Of a stretch of 64,000 nt of DNA, positions 635 to 8,704 are shown one piece after another. The position numbers and the translations under genes are program-made. The notes beneath the pieces were generated by a model that saw nothing but the letters and a program-made list of their open reading frames with translations, had not been told where the DNA came from and ran no database searches. Position 1 is the first letter of the stretch. Every line of letters starts with the position of its first letter. The stretch comes from Nitrospirota bacterium. Its GTDB lineage: Bacteria; Nitrospirota; Nitrospiria; Nitrospirales; Nitrospiraceae. Where the stretch lies: contig JBFMAX010000013.1 in assembly GCA_040755395.1 (NCBI GenBank), positions 1 through 64,000 of the forward strand, read 5' to 3'.

Positions 635-976
635 TTAGCCCCCGCTGTCCTTTTTCCCGAAATATTCCCGCCGGCTGACGGCAACGTCCGCGACGAACAT
701 CACGCCGGAGTGTCGTTCGAACAAGGGTCGCAGTCCGGCCAGAATCGGCTCGACCTTTTCTTCCGGGACGACGGTCATGATCATCACCAGGCTTTCCTGC
801 TCGCTGAACATGAAATGCGCTTCGCGGAACCCATGATGGCCTTTCCCCGACACATTGCCGATGATCGTGTACCCGGTCGCGTTCACCCTGTCCAACAAGT
901 CGGTGACGAACGCCCGGTGTTCTCCGGCGACGATGACACGGATCTCCTTCATGGGATGCAGCGTGAGGGCGCTCAT
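635..976 (-). CDS. PII-like regulatory protein of the carbon-uptake operon
   Basis: A 113-aa protein of PII-like ferredoxin fold (pattern KEIRVIVAGEHRAFVTDLLD, a loop region, then VVPEEKVEPILAGLRPLF and a final beta strand with VMFVADVAVSRREYF). An upstream extension of the frame exists, but ATG 976 is chosen because AAAGGAG lies 8 nt before it. It starts 59 nt after the dabA stop and is the last gene of the operon. PII-like proteins encoded beside bicarbonate transporters usually bind adenine nucleotides and gate or sense uptake. That role here is inferred from context. The classical PII uridylylated T-loop tyrosine is not evident, so it is not GlnB/GlnK itself. Confidence 0.8.
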   Translation of the reverse strand: MSALTLHPMKEIRVIVAGEHRAFVTDLLDRVNATGYTIIGNVSGKGHHGFREAHFMFSEQESLVMIMTVVPEEKVEPILAGLRPLFERHSGVMFVADVAVSRREYFGKKDSGG

Positions 977-1034: not shown

Positions 1035-4000
1035 TCAGCGACCCGTTGCAAGGAAATCGCAACGGGTGCCCCGGCTCCACTCGCCCGTCGGCCCATAGCG
1101 ATACAAGGCTCCATCCGATGGATCCAGCGCGGCGAGGTGCACCCACTCGTGATGATACAGGTGCCGCAACAGTTCGTGCCGCGCGATCAGCTTCTCGATG
1201 TTGGCGCGGGGAGCCTCGACCACGGTCAGCAGCCGCACGGGCTCGTGATAGGGAACCTCGCCGTTCATCACCGTCTGCCAGGCCAGGCCGAGCCGCAGAT
1301 CGCTCCAGGGTCCGGACATGATCCCGACTCGTCCCACGACGTTATGATACACCTTGCTGCCGCTGCCGTAGACCTCGTTATCCACGGTGGAGAAATAATG
1401 TTCCATATTGATCCATTGCGCCACGACTTGCGGCGCCGTCAGCAAGACTTCCAGAAGGCGGCTGGTCGGGTCTTCGCGGTAGTCGTACGAATGCAGGAAC
1501 ACGCGTCCGCCGAGGTCGAGGCCCTTCGTCAGTTCGCGCGGCCCGATGATGAAGGCCGCGTTGCCGGACAGCCCCCATTCCGGCCGGGTCTGGCTCCAGT
1601 CGGCGGCTCGGTCGCGCACATGCGCGACCGCCTGCGGAATGGACGGCGTCCGCGCCAGATCCGGGAAGCGGGTGCACCGCTCCTGGCTGGTCAGCCGAGC
1701 GGCTTCCCGCAAATCATCCAGCAAGCGGGCCACGTCCTTCCGGTGGGTCAGCGGGACGTCTTCGAGGTCGAACAGTTGCACCTCGTCCGTCGTCGTGTCG
1801 ATCTGACCGGCGAGAAAGTAGGTGTCGGAAGGTATGTCGATCCCGTTCTTGGCGAGCCGCGCCCTGACCTGCGGTTTGTTGGCCATTCCGGCGAGCACCC
1901 GGGCGTTGGGCTTGCCTTCGTTGCCGCCGCAGGCGCCGCAATCCAGCGCCGACTCGAACGGGTTGTTGTCCGAGGTGCTCCCATGCGCGCAGAACAAGAC
2001 GAGCCGCGCGAAGTTGCGGGTCAGGCCCATCATCCGGAGCGCGGTCTCGACCGTGAACACCTGCTCTTCCAGCGTGAAGCCGGTTCGCGTGATCCGTTCC
2101 CGTTGGCGCGAGGCCGCCCGATGATTGACGTCGTATCGTCGGCGCAGGGTCTCCACGAAGTTCGCCAGCGCGTCCGGCGGCAGCCCGGTGCGCCGAACGA
2201 GATCCGGCACCTGGGCGTCGAGCGCTCCGTCGCCGTTCAACGCCCGCCGGCGCAGGGCTTCCACCAGTTCGGGCGAGACCCGCGAGCCGTGCAGGCCGAG
2301 CTCATTGCGCAAGGCCTTCCAGACGATCGCCCGCTGTTCCGCGACGACCATCTCTTCGGTGTCCGCCGGGGTCAGTTTATCGACGGTCACGGTGGTGGCG
2401 ATGGGCGGCACGAAAATCCGGCGCAGCCAGGCGGTCCAGCGGCGATACCACGCGGAGAAGAAGGTCTTGCCGAACAAGGGGAGACCGTAGAACCAGCCCA
2501 GCGATTCCACCATGACATAGGGAGTCACTACGTTCTCTTTGAGATCGTGCAACAGGGTGTGTCCCGCATGGACCAGTTTGGCTCTCGATTCATGCTTGGG
2601 CACCATGTGATCGAGGTAACTGCGGGGAAACTCGCGCACTTCGTTCTTGGCCCGCATGATCACAGGAAACTGTTCGGTCTCATGGTCCTTCCCCCATGCC
2701 CGGAACCGAATGAAAACGGCGAAGAACCCGGCAAAGCCATAGGTCTCGTTCGCGCCGGTCGATTCCAGATGACGCCGGAACGGCTCGGATCGCACATCGA
2801 TGCAAAAGACCGATTGAGATTGGGGTCTGACCGGAACGGACCCCTCCCGCTCGCTCGTGCGCGAAAGGGAGGCCGTCCGCATAAGTTGGCCGAACGCCTG
2901 GTCGTGGTACCCGGCTTCGAATGCCTTGAGCCAGAGGGAACCGTGGGCCGATTCGGGGAACTCGTCCATCCAGCGCGCCAGCATGGCCAGATGATCCGGA
3001 GTGCCCTCCAGCAGGACCGTCGGCACGATGTCCAACGCCTGAGCCAGCGCCAGCAGGCGCCGGGCCGTCGCCAACCGGAAGGCCCGATCCCGGCGCGGGC
3101 CCATCTCCGTCTGAACGCGGTCGGCTGCCTCTTTCCACCCGTCGTCGCCCCGGCGGGCCAGCCGATCGACCAGGTCGACATAGGGGGCCGGCAAGCGTCC
3201 GGCGGCCCGTTCCTTGCGCAAGAAGTACGCTTCGGGGTGCTGCTCCATGTAGCGCGTCACCGCGGTGAAGGTCCCCTCGATGCCGAGCTCATCGCGACAG
3301 ACTTTCCGGACCAGTTCGCGCACATACCAGAGGCGGACGGCCAGGAATTTCACGAGACTGATCGGGCACGCCTGCTGCCAGGCATAGTCGGGCCTTTCCT
3401 CGCGCCACTTGATGAAGCTGGGCCAGCCGGGGAGCGCCGTGAGTTGGAGCGAGAGGTAGTCTTGCCGAAGCTCGTGGGGAACGGCGAGGATGTCCAGGCT
3501 CTCCAACACGGCGTCCTCGGGGTGTTCGGGCAGCGCCTCGATTTTCCGCCGACTGTCCGCAATGCCGCAGGGCGACCACTCCCGCGCCGCAAGGGATTTC
3601 CACGCGACATAGAACCCCCGTTCCCGCCCCGGCATCGACCAGGCGGCGTGGCCTTCGTCCAAGAAGGCTTCGCACCACTTCACCATTTCACTGTTGACCT
3701 GGGCGACGATGGACGTGCCGCAGGTGCGGTCGCACCAACTCGACAGGGTCAGGGCGCGTCCTAAGGACGAGAGGTCCTCTTTCACCGCCGCGGCCATCTG
3801 GTCGTACACCGGCGGGACCGACACCGCGGGAGCCAGATGGTCGGCCAAGGCGCGGACCAGGTCCTCGTTCGGTCCGCCGTCCACCAGGGCGTCGAGCGGT
3901 TCGTCCGGCAGTGCGCACAACCCATGGGTCAGGCAGGCCCGTAGGACCTCGCGATGTGCGATGCGGCACGGGCCGACGATCACGTGCTGCTCGCGGGCCA

Positions 4001-4280
4001 ACGGGCGTAACGCCTCCTCGAGATGATGGAGGCGAATCCGGCCGGATCGGAGATAGCGCCGATACAGGTCGCCCGTGAGATAGCCCCTCCCTCCGAGGAA
4101 CCGCGCGCCCCGCGCGACCGCTTCGTCGAACGGCAGATATTCGAGGCTGTGCAGCGGATTATGGTGCACGAACGTGCGCATCGGCCAATAGTGCGCGATC
4201 ACTTCGCCGGCCACGCGGACGATGCCGCGCAATTCCATGCGGCGGGTTTCCGTGTCGATGCCGCGCGCTACCTGGTCCAT
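1035..4280 (-). CDS. dabA: DabA, inorganic-carbon uptake subunit (DUF2309)
   Basis: A 1081-aa DUF2309 protein, the cytoplasmic zinc subunit of the DAB dissolved-inorganic-carbon accumulation complex, which is proposed to couple membrane energy to vectorial hydration of CO2 to bicarbonate. The carbonic-anhydrase-like site is intact: C493 and D495 in SVFCIDVRSE, H766 in FCAHGSTSDNNP and C781 in ALDCGACGG. The H-to-C distance of 15 and the C-x-D pattern match the site described for Halothiobacillus DabA (C351, D353, H524, C539). The start overlaps the upstream membrane-subunit gene by 13 bp, showing translational coupling. The last codons lie in a palindromic repeat (1041-1067), so the C-terminal tail GTRCDFLATGR is repeat-derived. 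It is longer than many homologues (about 800 aa), as expected for the long form. Confidence 0.95.
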   Translation of the reverse strand: MDQVARGIDTETRRMELRGIVRVAGEVIAHYWPMRTFVHHNPLHSLEYLPFDEAVARGARFLGGRGYLTGDLYRRYLRSGRIRLHHLEEALRPLAREQHVIVGPCRIAHREVLRACLTHGLCALPDEPLDALVDGGPNEDLVRALADHLAPAVSVPPVYDQMAAAVKEDLSSLGRALTLSSWCDRTCGTSIVAQVNSEMVKWCEAFLDEGHAAWSMPGRERGFYVAWKSLAAREWSPCGIADSRRKIEALPEHPEDAVLESLDILAVPHELRQDYLSLQLTALPGWPSFIKWREERPDYAWQQACPISLVKFLAVRLWYVRELVRKVCRDELGIEGTFTAVTRYMEQHPEAYFLRKERAAGRLPAPYVDLVDRLARRGDDGWKEAADRVQTEMGPRRDRAFRLATARRLLALAQALDIVPTVLLEGTPDHLAMLARWMDEFPESAHGSLWLKAFEAGYHDQAFGQLMRTASLSRTSEREGSVPVRPQSQSVFCIDVRSEPFRRHLESTGANETYGFAGFFAVFIRFRAWGKDHETEQFPVIMRAKNEVREFPRSYLDHMVPKHESRAKLVHAGHTLLHDLKENVVTPYVMVESLGWFYGLPLFGKTFFSAWYRRWTAWLRRIFVPPIATTVTVDKLTPADTEEMVVAEQRAIVWKALRNELGLHGSRVSPELVEALRRRALNGDGALDAQVPDLVRRTGLPPDALANFVETLRRRYDVNHRAASRQRERITRTGFTLEEQVFTVETALRMMGLTRNFARLVLFCAHGSTSDNNPFESALDCGACGGNEGKPNARVLAGMANKPQVRARLAKNGIDIPSDTYFLAGQIDTTTDEVQLFDLEDVPLTHRKDVARLLDDLREAARLTSQERCTRFPDLARTPSIPQAVAHVRDRAADWSQTRPEWGLSGNAAFIIGPRELTKGLDLGGRVFLHSYDYREDPTSRLLEVLLTAPQVVAQWINMEHYFSTVDNEVYGSGSKVYHNVVGRVGIMSGPWSDLRLGLAWQTVMNGEVPYHEPVRLLTVVEAPRANIEKLIARHELLRHLYHHEWVHLAALDPSDGALYRYGPTGEWSRGTRCDFLATGR
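1041..1067. repeat. Palindromic repeat family A (copy 1), inside dabA 3' end
   Basis: ACCCGTTGC (1041-1049), a 9-nt loop and GCAACGGGT (1059-1067). The same architecture recurs at 17919-17945 and 27815-27841, with variants at 24220-24249 and 54617-54656. Here it lies within the last codons of dabA. Confidence 0.85.
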
Positions 4281-5575
4281 GCGGGAAACTCCAGGGTGAC
4301 CGTTCGCTGTGGCGGAGCAGGGCCGGATTCGAACAGCCGGGACGGCATCACGCCGAGCATCAGCAGGAGGGCGATCACGAGGGCGAGCGAAGCCGACTCG
4401 GGACCCCGCAGATCCTGATGGCGCAGGGTCGTTCGTTCCTGGCCGAACAGGAGGCGGTGCGCAAGATCGAAGAAATACCAGGATGCGCAGAGCCAGGCGA
4501 TCACGACGACGATCAGGCCGCTGGTCGCGGTATGGGACGGCGCGAGCAGCATGCCGACCAAGCCTGAGAACACGCCGAAGGGCGGCAGACCCAGCGCGGC
4601 GAGCACGAGGAGCGAGAGCGCCACGGCGAAGCGAGGCATCGGGCGCGCGAGGCCGCTCAACGCCCGAAGATCAACGTCGCCGTAACGGGCGCGCAGGGCG
4701 TACCACGCGAGCAGCAATCCGCCGCCGGCCAGCCCGACCGCGCTCAGGTAGACGGCCGTCTGGGGCGGGGCCGTGCGGGTCTCGGCCAGGTACCACCACA
4801 GAATGGAGAGGAACGCCAGATCGCCGTAAGCGATGAGCGCGGCCGGACGCGATTGAGCCAGCGCTTTCAGCGACCCGTAGAGGGTTCCCGCGAGAGCCAG
4901 CCCCGCCGCCGCCTGCGCCAGCGCGTCCGGCCAGTGGGGAATCGCCCCACGCAGCCCGTGGAACCCGAGCACCGGCAGGAGCAGGGCGAGAAAGGCGGGC
5001 AGGTTGCCCGGCAGTCCCGTGACGGCGGCAAGGTAGCCGTGGTGAAACGGCACGAGCGGCAGCGCGATCGCGCAGCCCACGACGAAGGCGAGGGAGGAGA
5101 CGGGAGGAGCCGCGAGGAGGGCGGTCGCGAGGCTCAGGACGCCGAGGCCGAGGGTCCCGATCCCCCACCAGGCAGCGGGCTCGGGAAGGGCCCTTTGGAC
5201 GGACAGGAGCAGCGCAACGAGCGCGAGAACGAGCAGCAGAAGGATCTGCCCTAGAGGACCTTCCCCCGCGAGCGCGCCCAGCCCTATTCCGAGCAAGAGC
5301 AGGGTCAGCAACCAGGCCGTTCGGTTGCTCCCATGCGCCGGTTGTCCCAGCAGCGACACGAAGGCGCCCAGAGGCGGAAGCAAGAGAAACGGCAGCCCTT
5401 CGGCCGCGGCGGAGAGCGACCCGAAGCTCCAGCACACCGTGAGGAGACTCGCCGCGGCGACCAGGAGCCCCCAGACCTTGAGCACCCGCGGGTTGCCCCA
5501 CAGGAGCAGCCCCAGCGCCGCGCCCAGGACGGGCGTTGCGACGACCAGCAGAGGCGCAGTCGCCCAAGCCGTCAT
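4268..5575 (-). CDS. Second antiporter-like membrane subunit of the DAB operon
   Basis: A 435-aa, almost entirely hydrophobic protein with the overall pattern of the NuoL/M/N antiporter family (proton-conducting transporter domain). The segment CAIALPLVPFHHGYLAA aligns with the family's TM7 sequence (SAQxPLHxWLP), but the pumping lysine normally just before it is absent (alanine/leucine here). The ATG at 5575 forms an ATGA overlap with the upstream dabB-like gene and has GGGGGAGG ahead of it, so it is preferred over an ATG 7 codons upstream. The 3' end overlaps dabA by 13 bp. Most described DAB systems have one NuoL-like subunit, so this extra, shorter one may be structural or a half-channel. 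Assignment to the family is from sequence, and its role is inferred. Confidence 0.75.
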   Translation of the reverse strand: MTAWATAPLLVVATPVLGAALGLLLWGNPRVLKVWGLLVAAASLLTVCWSFGSLSAAAEGLPFLLLPPLGAFVSLLGQPAHGSNRTAWLLTLLLLGIGLGALAGEGPLGQILLLLVLALVALLLSVQRALPEPAAWWGIGTLGLGVLSLATALLAAPPVSSLAFVVGCAIALPLVPFHHGYLAAVTGLPGNLPAFLALLLPVLGFHGLRGAIPHWPDALAQAAAGLALAGTLYGSLKALAQSRPAALIAYGDLAFLSILWWYLAETRTAPPQTAVYLSAVGLAGGGLLLAWYALRARYGDVDLRALSGLARPMPRFAVALSLLVLAALGLPPFGVFSGLVGMLLAPSHTATSGLIVVVIAWLCASWYFFDLAHRLLFGQERTTLRHQDLRGPESASLALVIALLLMLGVMPSRLFESGPAPPQRTVTLEFPAWTR

Positions 5576-7272
5576 GACATCCTCCCCCAAGACCATCGGT
5601 CGAGCCGGTCGGCTGCGCGCATGACGGCCCGGCCCAGCTTAGCGTAGAGCTCATCAAGATAGAGGCGGTTCATGAACAGCACGTACAGATATGAATGGCC
5701 CCGTTCCGCCCAGGCCGGCATCCGCACCGGCCGCCCGCGCGTTCGCGCGTACAGGAAAAACCACCCGAGGACGATCAGGAGGGTCGTGGTCGCGACGAGC
5801 CCGTCGAAGAGGAAGCCGGGCAGCGCGGCGGCCCGGAAGTACGAGGCCGTCTCCGCCGGATCGGGATAGAGGAAGGTGGTGAAGGATTCGGCGGCGAACA
5901 GGTAGGTGAACACGACGACAAGCAGCGTCGCCAGCATGGCCGCGGACACTTTCCATGAGGCGACGGCCCGCAGGCGGGTCAGCGTCAGGATCGCCTGGGA
6001 CGACGTGACCCAACTGAAGAACAGGAAAATCACGGTCCCCTGGGAGTCGCGGATCGGGATGCGCAAGATGCCGTGGGTCACCAGCAGGATCACCAGCGGG
6101 ATCAGCAGAGTCGTGACGAATCCCGTGGACCAGGCGAGCCGGGAAAATTCGGCTTCCTCCGGCGGACGGGCGACGGGCGGCAAGACCGGCTCCTGCCGGG
6201 CCTTGTGAATCACGTTGCCGCAGTTGAGGAAGACGGTCGCCTTGAAGAGCCCGTGCGCGATGAGATGGAAGATCGCGAGCGAAAACGCGCCCAGGCCGCA
6301 CTCCATGATCATGTAGCCCATCTGGCCGATGGTGGAGAAGCCGAGCGTTTTCTTGATGTCGTTCTGCGCCAGCATCATCGCCGCGCCGAGGATCGCCGTG
6401 AGCGAGCCGACCACGAAGGCGACGTGAAGGGCCGTGGAGCTCAACCCGTAGAGGGGCGCGAGGCGGTTCATCAGAAAGCCCCCGGCGTTGATGATGCCGG
6501 CATGCAGCAACGCATGGACCGGCGTCGGGGCGTACAGGGAGCGCGGAAGCCAGATATGAAGAGGAAACTGCGCCGACTTGCTCATCGCGCCGACAAACAG
6601 CAGCAGCGTCACCGCGGTGGGGCCGCCGACCTCGACGCCGGACGCAAGAACCAAGGCGCCCGGCGTCTCGGCGGCCCGCGCGAAGAGCTCGTCGAACTCC
6701 AGGGTGCCGTAGAGCGAGTGCGCGAGCACGATCCCGGCGAGAAAGGCGACATCGCCGACGCGCAGCAGCGTGAACGTTTTGAACGCGCCCTCGAGCGTGG
6801 CGGCATGAGAGAGGTTGTGCGCGAGCAAATAGAGCAGGTAGCTCAGCAGTTGCCAGCACACAAAGAGCATGAGGAGATTGGCGCTCGACACCATGCACAG
6901 GAGGGCGAAGGTCGTGAAGCCGATGAGCGCCAGAAACCGGCGGTAGCCGCGATCCTGATACAGGTAGCCGACGGAGTAGCGGTAAATGACCGCGCCCACC
7001 CCGGCGATGAGCACCATCATGACCGCGCTGAGCCGGTCGATGCGGAAACCCAGCGGGAGGCCCAGAGTCCCGGCGGAGGCGGGATCATAGAATCGAATGT
7101 CGACTGGTCCATACGAGACGACGGCACCCAACGTCGCGATGGCGCCGAGAAAGGCCGCGGCCATGGGCGCCACGCCCAGCTTTGCGCGGTGATGCTGCGT
7201 CGCGGGCTCCCCGATCAGGACAAAGAAGACCGTCAACAGCGGCAACAGCGGGACGAGGATCAAGAGCGACAT
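5572..7272 (-). CDS. dabB: DabB-like NuoL-family membrane subunit
   Basis: A 566-aa NuoL/proton-conducting transporter homologue with about 14 predicted membrane segments, the expected membrane partner of DabA for inorganic-carbon uptake. The TM7 motif is intact (GAMSKSAQFPLHIWLPRSL, with the channel lysine at K232), followed by PTPVHALLHAG. The TM5 position that is glutamate in NuoL/NuoM (WE) reads glutamine here (FVCWQLLSYL, Q141). The ATG at 7272 is chosen because it begins the first hydrophobic helix (MSLLILVPLLPLL) and has AAAGGA upstream. The frame opens 37 codons earlier without a plausible N-terminus. It is the first gene of the operon and overlaps the next by 4 bp (ATGA). An intrinsic terminator sits about 60 bp upstream, inside the probable leader. 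Confidence 0.88.
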   Translation of the reverse strand: MSLLILVPLLPLLTVFFVLIGEPATQHHRAKLGVAPMAAAFLGAIATLGAVVSYGPVDIRFYDPASAGTLGLPLGFRIDRLSAVMMVLIAGVGAVIYRYSVGYLYQDRGYRRFLALIGFTTFALLCMVSSANLLMLFVCWQLLSYLLYLLAHNLSHAATLEGAFKTFTLLRVGDVAFLAGIVLAHSLYGTLEFDELFARAAETPGALVLASGVEVGGPTAVTLLLFVGAMSKSAQFPLHIWLPRSLYAPTPVHALLHAGIINAGGFLMNRLAPLYGLSSTALHVAFVVGSLTAILGAAMMLAQNDIKKTLGFSTIGQMGYMIMECGLGAFSLAIFHLIAHGLFKATVFLNCGNVIHKARQEPVLPPVARPPEEAEFSRLAWSTGFVTTLLIPLVILLVTHGILRIPIRDSQGTVIFLFFSWVTSSQAILTLTRLRAVASWKVSAAMLATLLVVVFTYLFAAESFTTFLYPDPAETASYFRAAALPGFLFDGLVATTTLLIVLGWFFLYARTRGRPVRMPAWAERGHSYLYVLFMNRLYLDELYAKLGRAVMRAADRLDRWSWGRMS

Positions 7273-7540: not shown

Positions 7541-7632
7541 AAGAAATTTCGTCCCATGTCTAGGTCTTAAGGCCCATGGCCCATACCCGAGCCGCGAGTG
7601 GAATAGTTGTCGATGCGCGGGACGGAACGCTT

Positions 7633-7638
7633 TATAAT
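7633..7638 (+). promoter_or_regulatory. -10 element upstream of the DUF2294 gene
   Basis: A perfect TATAAT lies 32 nt before the DUF2294 start codon. The best -35 candidate (TTGTCG, 7607-7612) gives a 20-nt spacer, longer than ideal, so only the -10 box is called. It would drive the DUF2294/carbonic anhydrase genes, divergent from the dab operon. Confidence 0.45.
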
Positions 7639-7669
7639 CCAAGCCGCCCTTTCCGGCCGGCGAGGATCG

Positions 7670-8047
7670 ATGAATCACCCCGAAAAGCGCACCAAAGGCG
7701 AAGTCGAGGCCGCCATTCGCAATGCGGTCATCAAGTTCGAGCAGGAGTTCATGGGACGAGGCCCGGACGACGTGCGGGCCTTCATCGTCCGGGACATGGT
7801 CGTGGTCCGCTTGAAAGGCGTCCTGACGCCGGCGGAGCGACAACTCGCCAAAACGCCCGACGGCGTGGACATGGTGAAACGGCTGCGACAGAATCTGATC
7901 GCGCAGGGACGGGACAGGCTGTTCGACCAGGTGAGCGAGATCACCGGGGCCAGCACGGTCGCGCTCTTCACGGACATCGACGCCCAGGTGGGCGAGCGGG
8001 TGTTCGTGTTCACGCTCGATCGCGATCTGGAATCCAGCTTCCGCTGA
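7670..8047 (+). CDS. DUF2294 domain protein
   Basis: A 125-aa protein matching DUF2294: an N-terminal helix (KGEVEAAIRNAVIKFEQEFM), the strand pair GPDDVRAFIVRDMVVVRLKG, then LTPAERQLA and a C-terminal strand FVFTLDRDLES. The ATG at 7670 is preferred over an earlier in-frame ATG because GGCGAGG lies just ahead and the conserved domain begins there. It ends 9 nt before the carbonic anhydrase start, so the two are almost certainly co-transcribed, divergently from the dab operon. The biochemical role of DUF2294 is not established to my knowledge. Its position between DAB and carbonic anhydrase suggests a part in inorganic-carbon handling (inference). Confidence 0.85.
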   Translation: MNHPEKRTKGEVEAAIRNAVIKFEQEFMGRGPDDVRAFIVRDMVVVRLKGVLTPAERQLAKTPDGVDMVKRLRQNLIAQGRDRLFDQVSEITGASTVALFTDIDAQVGERVFVFTLDRDLESSFR

Positions 8048-8056
8048 AGGTGCGCC

Positions 8057-8704
8057 ATGCAAAAGCTGATTGAGGGATTCAAGAAATTCCAGACCGAAGT
8101 CTTTCGGGCCAAGAAGGGGCTGTTCGACCGGCTCGCGCATCAGCAACATCCCCGGGCGCTGTTCATTACCTGCTCGGACTCGAGAATCGATCCCTGTCTC
8201 CTCACCCAAACGGAGCCGGGCGAGCTGTTTATCTTGCGGAACGCCGGAAACCTGGTGCCGTCCTACGGCGCCACCGTCGGCAGCACCACCGCGACGATCG
8301 AATACGCGGTCGGCGTGCTGGAGGTCCGCAACATCATCGTCTGCGGGCATACGGACTGCGGCGTGGTGAAGGCGTTGCTCGATCCGGACCAGGTCGGCGA
8401 TCTGCCGGCGGTCAAAGCGTGGCTGACGCAGGCCGAGGCCACCCGCCGTGTGGTGAAAGAGAACTACGCCCACCTCAACGGCGAGGCCCTGCTGGTGGCC
8501 ACCATCCAGGAAAACGTCCGCATCCAGGTCGAGCATCTGCAGACGCACCCGACCGTCGCAGCCCGGTTGCGGAGGGGTGCCCTGGAGCTGCACGGATGGG
8601 TCTATTCCATCGCGACCGGCGACGTTTGGGCGTACGATTTCGACAAGGACCGGTTCGTGTCGCTGTTGGACGTCCGGCCGGACAACCGTCGAGCCGGGCG
8701 ATAA
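8057..8704 (+). CDS. Beta-class carbonic anhydrase
   Basis: A 215-aa beta-carbonic anhydrase interconverting CO2 and bicarbonate with a zinc site. C39 and the catalytic D41-R43 pair lie in TCSDSRIDP, and H98 and C101 in CGHTDCGVV. Length and motif spacing are normal for the plant/bacterial beta class. There is no signal peptide, so it is cytoplasmic. A cytosolic enzyme next to a DAB transporter would feed CO2 from accumulated bicarbonate to carboxylases, or balance the two pools. It is translated 9 nt after DUF2294. The next gene (selO) follows after 19 nt and may be in the same transcript. Confidence 0.95.
   Translation: MQKLIEGFKKFQTEVFRAKKGLFDRLAHQQHPRALFITCSDSRIDPCLLTQTEPGELFILRNAGNLVPSYGATVGSTTATIEYAVGVLEVRNIIVCGHTDCGVVKALLDPDQVGDLPAVKAWLTQAEATRRVVKENYAHLNGEALLVATIQENVRIQVEHLQTHPTVAARLRRGALELHGWVYSIATGDVWAYDFDKDRFVSLLDVRPDNRRAGR

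Follow-up and report, generated by a model that had tools for sequence, protein, structure and literature searches.

Why should a bacterial locus for the accumulation of inorganic carbon carry a second antiporter-like membrane subunit from which the proton-channel residues have disappeared? The question is raised by a 64,000-nucleotide stretch of a Nitrospirota genome (assembly GCA_040755395.1, contig JBFMAX010000013.1, positions 1 to 64,000; hereafter the window), in which the gene for a membrane protein, here called Mid, lies between homologues of dabB and dabA, the genes of dissolved-inorganic-carbon (DIC)-accumulating complexes (DACs). The reading favoured here, at a rough probability of 0.58, is that these genes encode a three-subunit DAB1-type complex in which Mid acts as a non-conducting scaffold or seal beside DabB. 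The genes form a run on the minus strand in which neighbours overlap or abut, in this order:

dabB, 5572..7272, minus strand: NuoL-like membrane subunit of 566 amino acids (PF00361, 167 bits, and PF00662; DabB2 chain 9rd0_B, E 3e-37).
Mid, 4268..5575, minus strand: NuoM-type antiporter-like protein of 435 amino acids with 14 transmembrane (TM) helices (PF00361, 34 bits; AlphaFold model; residue table).
dabA, 1035..4280, minus strand: beta-carbonic-anhydrase-like subunit of 1081 amino acids (PF10070, 891 bits; DabA2 chain 9rd0_A, E 2e-108).
P-II family protein, 635..976, minus strand: 113 amino acids, last in the run (PF00543, 81 bits) and also found downstream of dabA in relatives.

The Mid start codon (ATG, 5575-5573) shares an ATGA overlap with the dabB stop codon (5574-5572), and its 3' end, with the stop at 4270-4268, overlaps the dabA start (4280) by 13 nucleotides; overlap with both neighbours had been described in the first-pass annotation of this DNA.

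Mid scores above the PF00361 cut-off of Pfam (34.3 against 21.5 bits), NuoM models are closest to it by sequence (TIGR01972, E 6e-22) and NuoM is also its best sequence match among PDB chains. An AlphaFold model based on 41 sequences (predicted local distance difference test score, pLDDT, 87.1; predicted template-modelling score, pTM, 0.89) shows the 14-TM fold of the NuoM/NuoN type, with TM7 (159-171/179-187) and TM12 (314-327/334-344) broken. Foldseek and VIA-align placed the ND4/NuoM chains of complex I first for this model (Z about 40, 2.6-2.9 Å, about 410 residues), and chains of NuoN, Mrp and NuoL came only a few Z units behind; the choice of NuoM as parent paralogue therefore comes from sequence and not from fold, and on that ground Mid is a NuoM descendant.

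Unlike NuoM and ND4, whose fold it shares, Mid has none of the channel residues, and the DAC has no redox arm. At the positions of Escherichia coli NuoM K234, K265, H348 and E407, Mid of the window has A, V, V and L, the TM7 position being A171; the sequence reported for this region by the first-pass annotation, CAIALPLVPFHH, is found at residue 168. When 22 Mids and 10 C-terminal parts of DabB-Mid fusions from eight families were aligned to E. coli NuoM, the four positions were uncharged and mostly non-polar, one fused row being gapped at the TM7 position and another ending before TM12. The TM7 lysine is missing from all 31 Mid or fused sequences that could be aligned there, so that its loss, noticed earlier in the window protein, is a family trait; the TM8 lysine, TM11 histidine and TM12 glutamate, which the earlier account did not cover, are lost as well. 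The charge set of proton-conducting NuoM, NuoN and NuoL subunits (TM7 Lys, TM8 Lys or His, TM12 Glu or Lys) is absent from Mid and from the aligned family. The first-pass annotation had allowed that a conserved Lys/Glu channel elsewhere in Mid would undo its case; none was found in the alignments, which contain no conserved lysine, glutamate or aspartate in mid-membrane. H178, at the TM7 break, is the sole conserved ionisable residue within the membrane region of the 41-sequence alignment, and the other invariant or nearly invariant ones (R245, R297, R381, D388 and E393) lie at helix ends or in loops of the model.

The gene is nonetheless maintained. Among 246 Nitrospirota genomes DabA was found in 107 and Mid in 79, and in all 73 genomes with a listed dabA on the contig of Mid the two lie within 157 bp of each other, so the arrangement is not due to chance. 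In the window's own family Mid accompanies DabA in 55 of 60 DabA-bearing genomes and is absent from five. The closest loci, in Nitrospira-type metagenome-assembled genomes, have the order dabB-Mid-dabA, followed by the P-II gene where the contig extends far enough. Mid diverges faster than its neighbours (median identity 52%, against 72% for dabB and 68% for dabA), its frame is open in nearly all loci, and its invariant residues persist down to about 25% identity. It is under purifying selection: the ratio of nonsynonymous to synonymous substitution rates (dN/dS) in 25 close pairs was 0.09-0.25, about 0.14, similar to dabB and dabA. Conservation and dN/dS together rule out a spurious open reading frame (ORF) or a pseudogene. 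A tblastn search with the window protein returned no plasmid-borne homologue; the Nitrobacter hamburgensis plasmid NC_007959 carries twice the order dabB, a 253-residue 'hypothetical' protein, DUF2309 and P-II, and this protein, which has no Pfam match, is homologous to Mid residues 164-410 (hhalign 95.8%, E 7e-9).

The association of Mid with DabB is indicated by gene fusion. In ten loci of five families (L067, L068, L070, L071, L074-L078 and L085) a single uninterrupted ORF, roughly 880-930 amino acids long where complete, joins DabB to a C-terminal stretch of Mid (about residues 150-425), and L069, which reaches a contig end, adds an eleventh fused locus and a sixth family. The DabA tree includes five of the fused loci and places them in a single supported clade nested among the three-gene loci, which suggests that the fusion arose only once. 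The fused forms and the 253-residue Nitrobacter protein retain only about TM7-14 of Mid. This part includes the half that NuoM turns towards NuoL, the distal subunit, in complex I. Because the two proteins are naturally fused in ten loci, they likely form a physical unit, in agreement with the earlier proposal that Mid interfaces with DabB. A model of the fused protein was weaker than that of Mid (pLDDT 75.5, pTM 0.82); its DabB part matched NuoL/ND5 in chain searches, and the 50 best fold matches listed did not include DabB2, which has no bearing on the relationship. The channel charges of Mid are gone, yet it has a NuoM-like fold, is under selection and has been fused to DabB; Mid is therefore probably a structural neighbour and not a pump, and a non-conducting scaffold or seal is probably its simplest role.

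The remaining subunits were compared with the DAB2 sequences (PDB 9rd0). The zinc-site residues C493, D495, H766 and C781 of DabA align to C351, D353, H524 and C539 of DabA2, and DabA also keeps the finger Glu444, as E592 in VMVES, and Leu658. DabB keeps all seven DAB2 proton-path residues (K235, H260, K310, S316, H339, H343 and K347), with Gln for Ile151 and His for Ser256 of DabB2; the lysine K232 that the first-pass annotation pointed out in DabB is present, its KSAQ beginning exactly there. With zinc, finger and proton-path residues retained, DabA and DabB seem to have all that catalysis and proton conduction require without Mid. DAB2 is described as a vectorial carbonic anhydrase that hydrates CO2 and is driven by the proton-motive force (PMC13144422), so that 'bicarbonate pump', the term first applied to the locus, does not describe such a complex. 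As in the solved DAB2, DabA would bind CO2 and hydrate it at the zinc site, while DabB and the DabA finger glutamate would pass protons down the proton-motive force and make the hydration to bicarbonate one-way. Mid, which probably no longer conducts protons, would be placed against DabB as NuoM is against NuoL, and would hold and seal the flank of DabB at which the chain of charges would run on in complex I, helping assembly or coupling. The initial idea of one active and one inactive membrane half agrees with the proton-path residues retained in DabB and the channel charges missing from Mid, although we infer the lack of conduction from the latter. 'Pumping lysine' correctly named a residue that Mid lacks, but is too strong for a DAB complex, since DabB2 K235A still complements and yields were lowered by 30-60% across ion-pair mutants (PMC13144422). 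In the DabB proteins of L104, L105 and L106, R182 is replaced by Q, D185 by G and K235 by R, so the TM7 lysine is not universal even in DabB; a link between the presence of Mid and loss of the ion pair R182/D185/K235 was considered, and no simple pattern was seen.

The first-pass annotation suggested that a membrane part with one active and one inactive half would be a distinct architecture; in the literature the three-gene arrangement is not new. DAB1 of Halothiobacillus neapolitanus, with three genes of which the interstitial one belongs to PF00361, complements carbonic-anhydrase-free E. coli (PMC7714395, eLife 2020; see also PMC13144422), and operons with extra NuoM subunits were noted in the 2017 COGNAT study (PMC5700660). 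The window resembles DAB1 (hneap_0909 dabB1, hneap_0908, hneap_0907 dabA1) in having a PF00361 membrane-protein gene between dabB and dabA; it differs in that Mid is a full-length 14-TM protein, whereas the DAB1 interstitial gene has been described as a small hypothetical TM protein (PMC13144422), hneap_0908 being likened to Mid by position and published description only. With DAB2 the window shares homologous DabA and DabB, the zinc ligands, the finger glutamate and the proton-path residues, but DAB2 has two subunits only, a shorter DabA and different residues at Ile151 and Ser256. The window DabA exceeds the 870 residues of DabA2 by about 210, with about 140 extra residues before the first zinc cysteine and about 94 between the finger and the zinc histidine; Mid is ruled out as the cause of this length, because DabA is similarly long in two-gene P-II loci. 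MpsAB/MpsC of Staphylococcus aureus likewise comprises DabB and DabA homologues with an MpsC-family gene adjoining the operon, but there the complex has two parts, without Mid, and Na+ coupling is proposed. COGNAT clade B, with a NuoL homologue followed by YbcC (DabA) and a P-II gene at the 3' end, is close in layout, while no degenerate NuoM-like gene is mentioned for it, and a NuoM gene is found in clade C, in the available part of that study (PMC5700660).

Several points weigh against a scaffold or seal. DAB2 works with two genes and no Mid-type subunit, its substrate tunnels running in DabA itself (PMC13144422), and the genome of the window (74 contigs, 4.1 Mb) has on contig C9 a second locus, dabB-dabA-P-II, without Mid, whose DabA and DabB are 50% and 53% identical to those of the window; contrary to what was first proposed, Mid is thus not universally needed for uptake. 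The first-pass annotation would have given up its proposal had the gene been absent from relatives with working DAB systems, and the second locus, which may be active, goes part of the way there. The alignment of TM5 between Mid and NuoM is uncertain, and the contact of Mid with DabB is deduced from the fused loci and the gene order, the model of the fusion having been compared with single chains only. In L104-L107, which are called Leptospirillum-type on the strength of the kind of genome, the Mid position is taken by a membrane protein of about 470 amino acids; its homology to Mid is plausible from sequence, but the link is weak (hhalign 9.9%), three of these third subunits keep the TM5 glutamate, and that of L107 has a possible TM12 glutamate. 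As for the Mid-less loci, the three-gene group of the DabA tree also contains orphan dabA genes and two-gene P-II loci, a placement that suggests loss of Mid from the latter; the alternative topology with all Mid-bearing rows together was not rejected (approximately unbiased test, p 0.081).

The most interesting of the other explanations, though an unlikely one, makes Mid a conduit for CO2: non-polar residues would now line what was once a proton channel, and CO2 would pass through it from the membrane to DabA while the DabB half conducts protons. The model for this is the cyanobacterial NDH-1MS complex (NdhD3, NdhF3, CupA), in which a CO2-hydrating protein is likewise accompanied by NuoL-like and NuoM-like subunits, of which one has its charges replaced by non-polar residues, and in which the charge-stripped antiporter-like NdhF3 is proposed to conduct CO2 (PMC6981117). 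NDH-1MS is, however, redox-driven and has an unrelated catalytic subunit, and its charges are lost in the NuoL-like subunit rather than the NuoM-like one; the catalytic subunit encoded at the window's locus is of the DabA type instead of CupA, neither CupA nor a redox arm having been searched for. Moreover, CO2 freely crosses membranes, DAB2 takes it up without such a subunit, and much of the fold's N-terminal half is missing from the fused and 253-residue forms.

Similarly unlikely is a docking or regulatory role for Mid, for example towards the P-II protein encoded downstream, or that of an assembly factor outside the mature complex. A P-II gene follows dabA in most long-DabA loci examined, and the faster evolution of Mid would suit such a role, but P-II also occurs in two-gene loci without Mid, including this genome's second locus, and permanent fusion to DabB in ten loci speaks against a transient factor. 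More doubtful is the conjecture that labour is generally divided in three-subunit DACs, DabB handling protons while a charge-stripped NuoM-derived subunit supplies DabA with CO2 through a hydrophobic path or gate; if true, such DACs would have arrived independently at the design of NDH-1MS, in mirror image. Distinctly improbable is an ion route of another kind, in which Mid would carry Na+ or H+ via H178 and loop residues and so move a second ion per cycle. Here the invariance of H178, the COGNAT proposal that operons with multiple membrane subunits move several ions (PMC5700660) and the clade-C-like locus L108, with its intact NuoM-like partner, stand against the want of any conserved Lys, Glu or Asp in mid-membrane and the match of H178 to the TM7-break histidine of NuoM and NuoN, which can be structural. 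That Mid is a decaying remnant without function is highly improbable, for although its channel residues are lost and it is missing from the second locus and from five of the family's 60 DabA-bearing genomes, it is kept by the other 55 under purifying selection, with an open frame in nearly all loci and residues that stay invariant in distant relatives.

Beside the scaffold or seal proposed for Mid, the analysis yielded DabA loci of other make-up. In L108:21-6344 the order is NuoM-like, dabA, dabB; the NuoM-like protein retains all channel residues, unlike Mid, and DabA has Leu for the finger Glu444 and His for Leu658, so that coupling may differ there. At L109:3782-8143 a DabA ORF of more than 1400 amino acids stands without dabB and has Asp at the finger glutamate and His at the Leu658 position. 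In the window's family, dabA occurs without dabB at L091:12902-16438, L092:1751-5137, L094:1300-4596, L095:16186-19503 and L099:5102-8410, each copy directly downstream of a gene that by eye looks like a PAPS-reductase/CysD-type gene and several with a PAS kinase and an NtrC-type regulator close by; the zinc residues and finger glutamate are kept where tested. The och operon of Leptospirillum sp. CF-1, described for oxidative stress and chromate, has NuoL-like and DUF2309 genes and hence a two-gene DAC make-up, and a role in carbon uptake is not mentioned in the available part of that report (PMC9080137). Next to the run in the window lie two divergent genes:

MpsC-family protein, 7607..8047, plus strand: divergent neighbour (PF10057, 121 bits).
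Beta-carbonic anhydrase, 8057..8704, plus strand: divergent neighbour (PF00484, 160 bits).

An MpsC-family gene is found near DAC loci in many Nitrospirota relatives, and a beta-carbonic anhydrase gene also adjoins the DAC in L005, L006 and L007.

Three-gene DACs are already known, and their interstitial gene is already filed under PF00361, while the gene has hitherto been unnamed and uncharacterised; no statement was found in the literature consulted that the third subunit has lost its channel residues, fuses to DabB or is common in Nitrospirota. The present analysis indicates that in Nitrospirota the interstitial gene encodes a protein of NuoM-type fold whose proton channel is dead, and that this protein is maintained across much of the phylum and sometimes fused to DabB. 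The question why a second antiporter-like subunit is present in some CO2 pumps and absent from others can thereby be put to a concrete test. The result also matters for efforts to transfer compact CO2-uptake systems to crops or chassis bacteria, for which it is important how many subunits are required.
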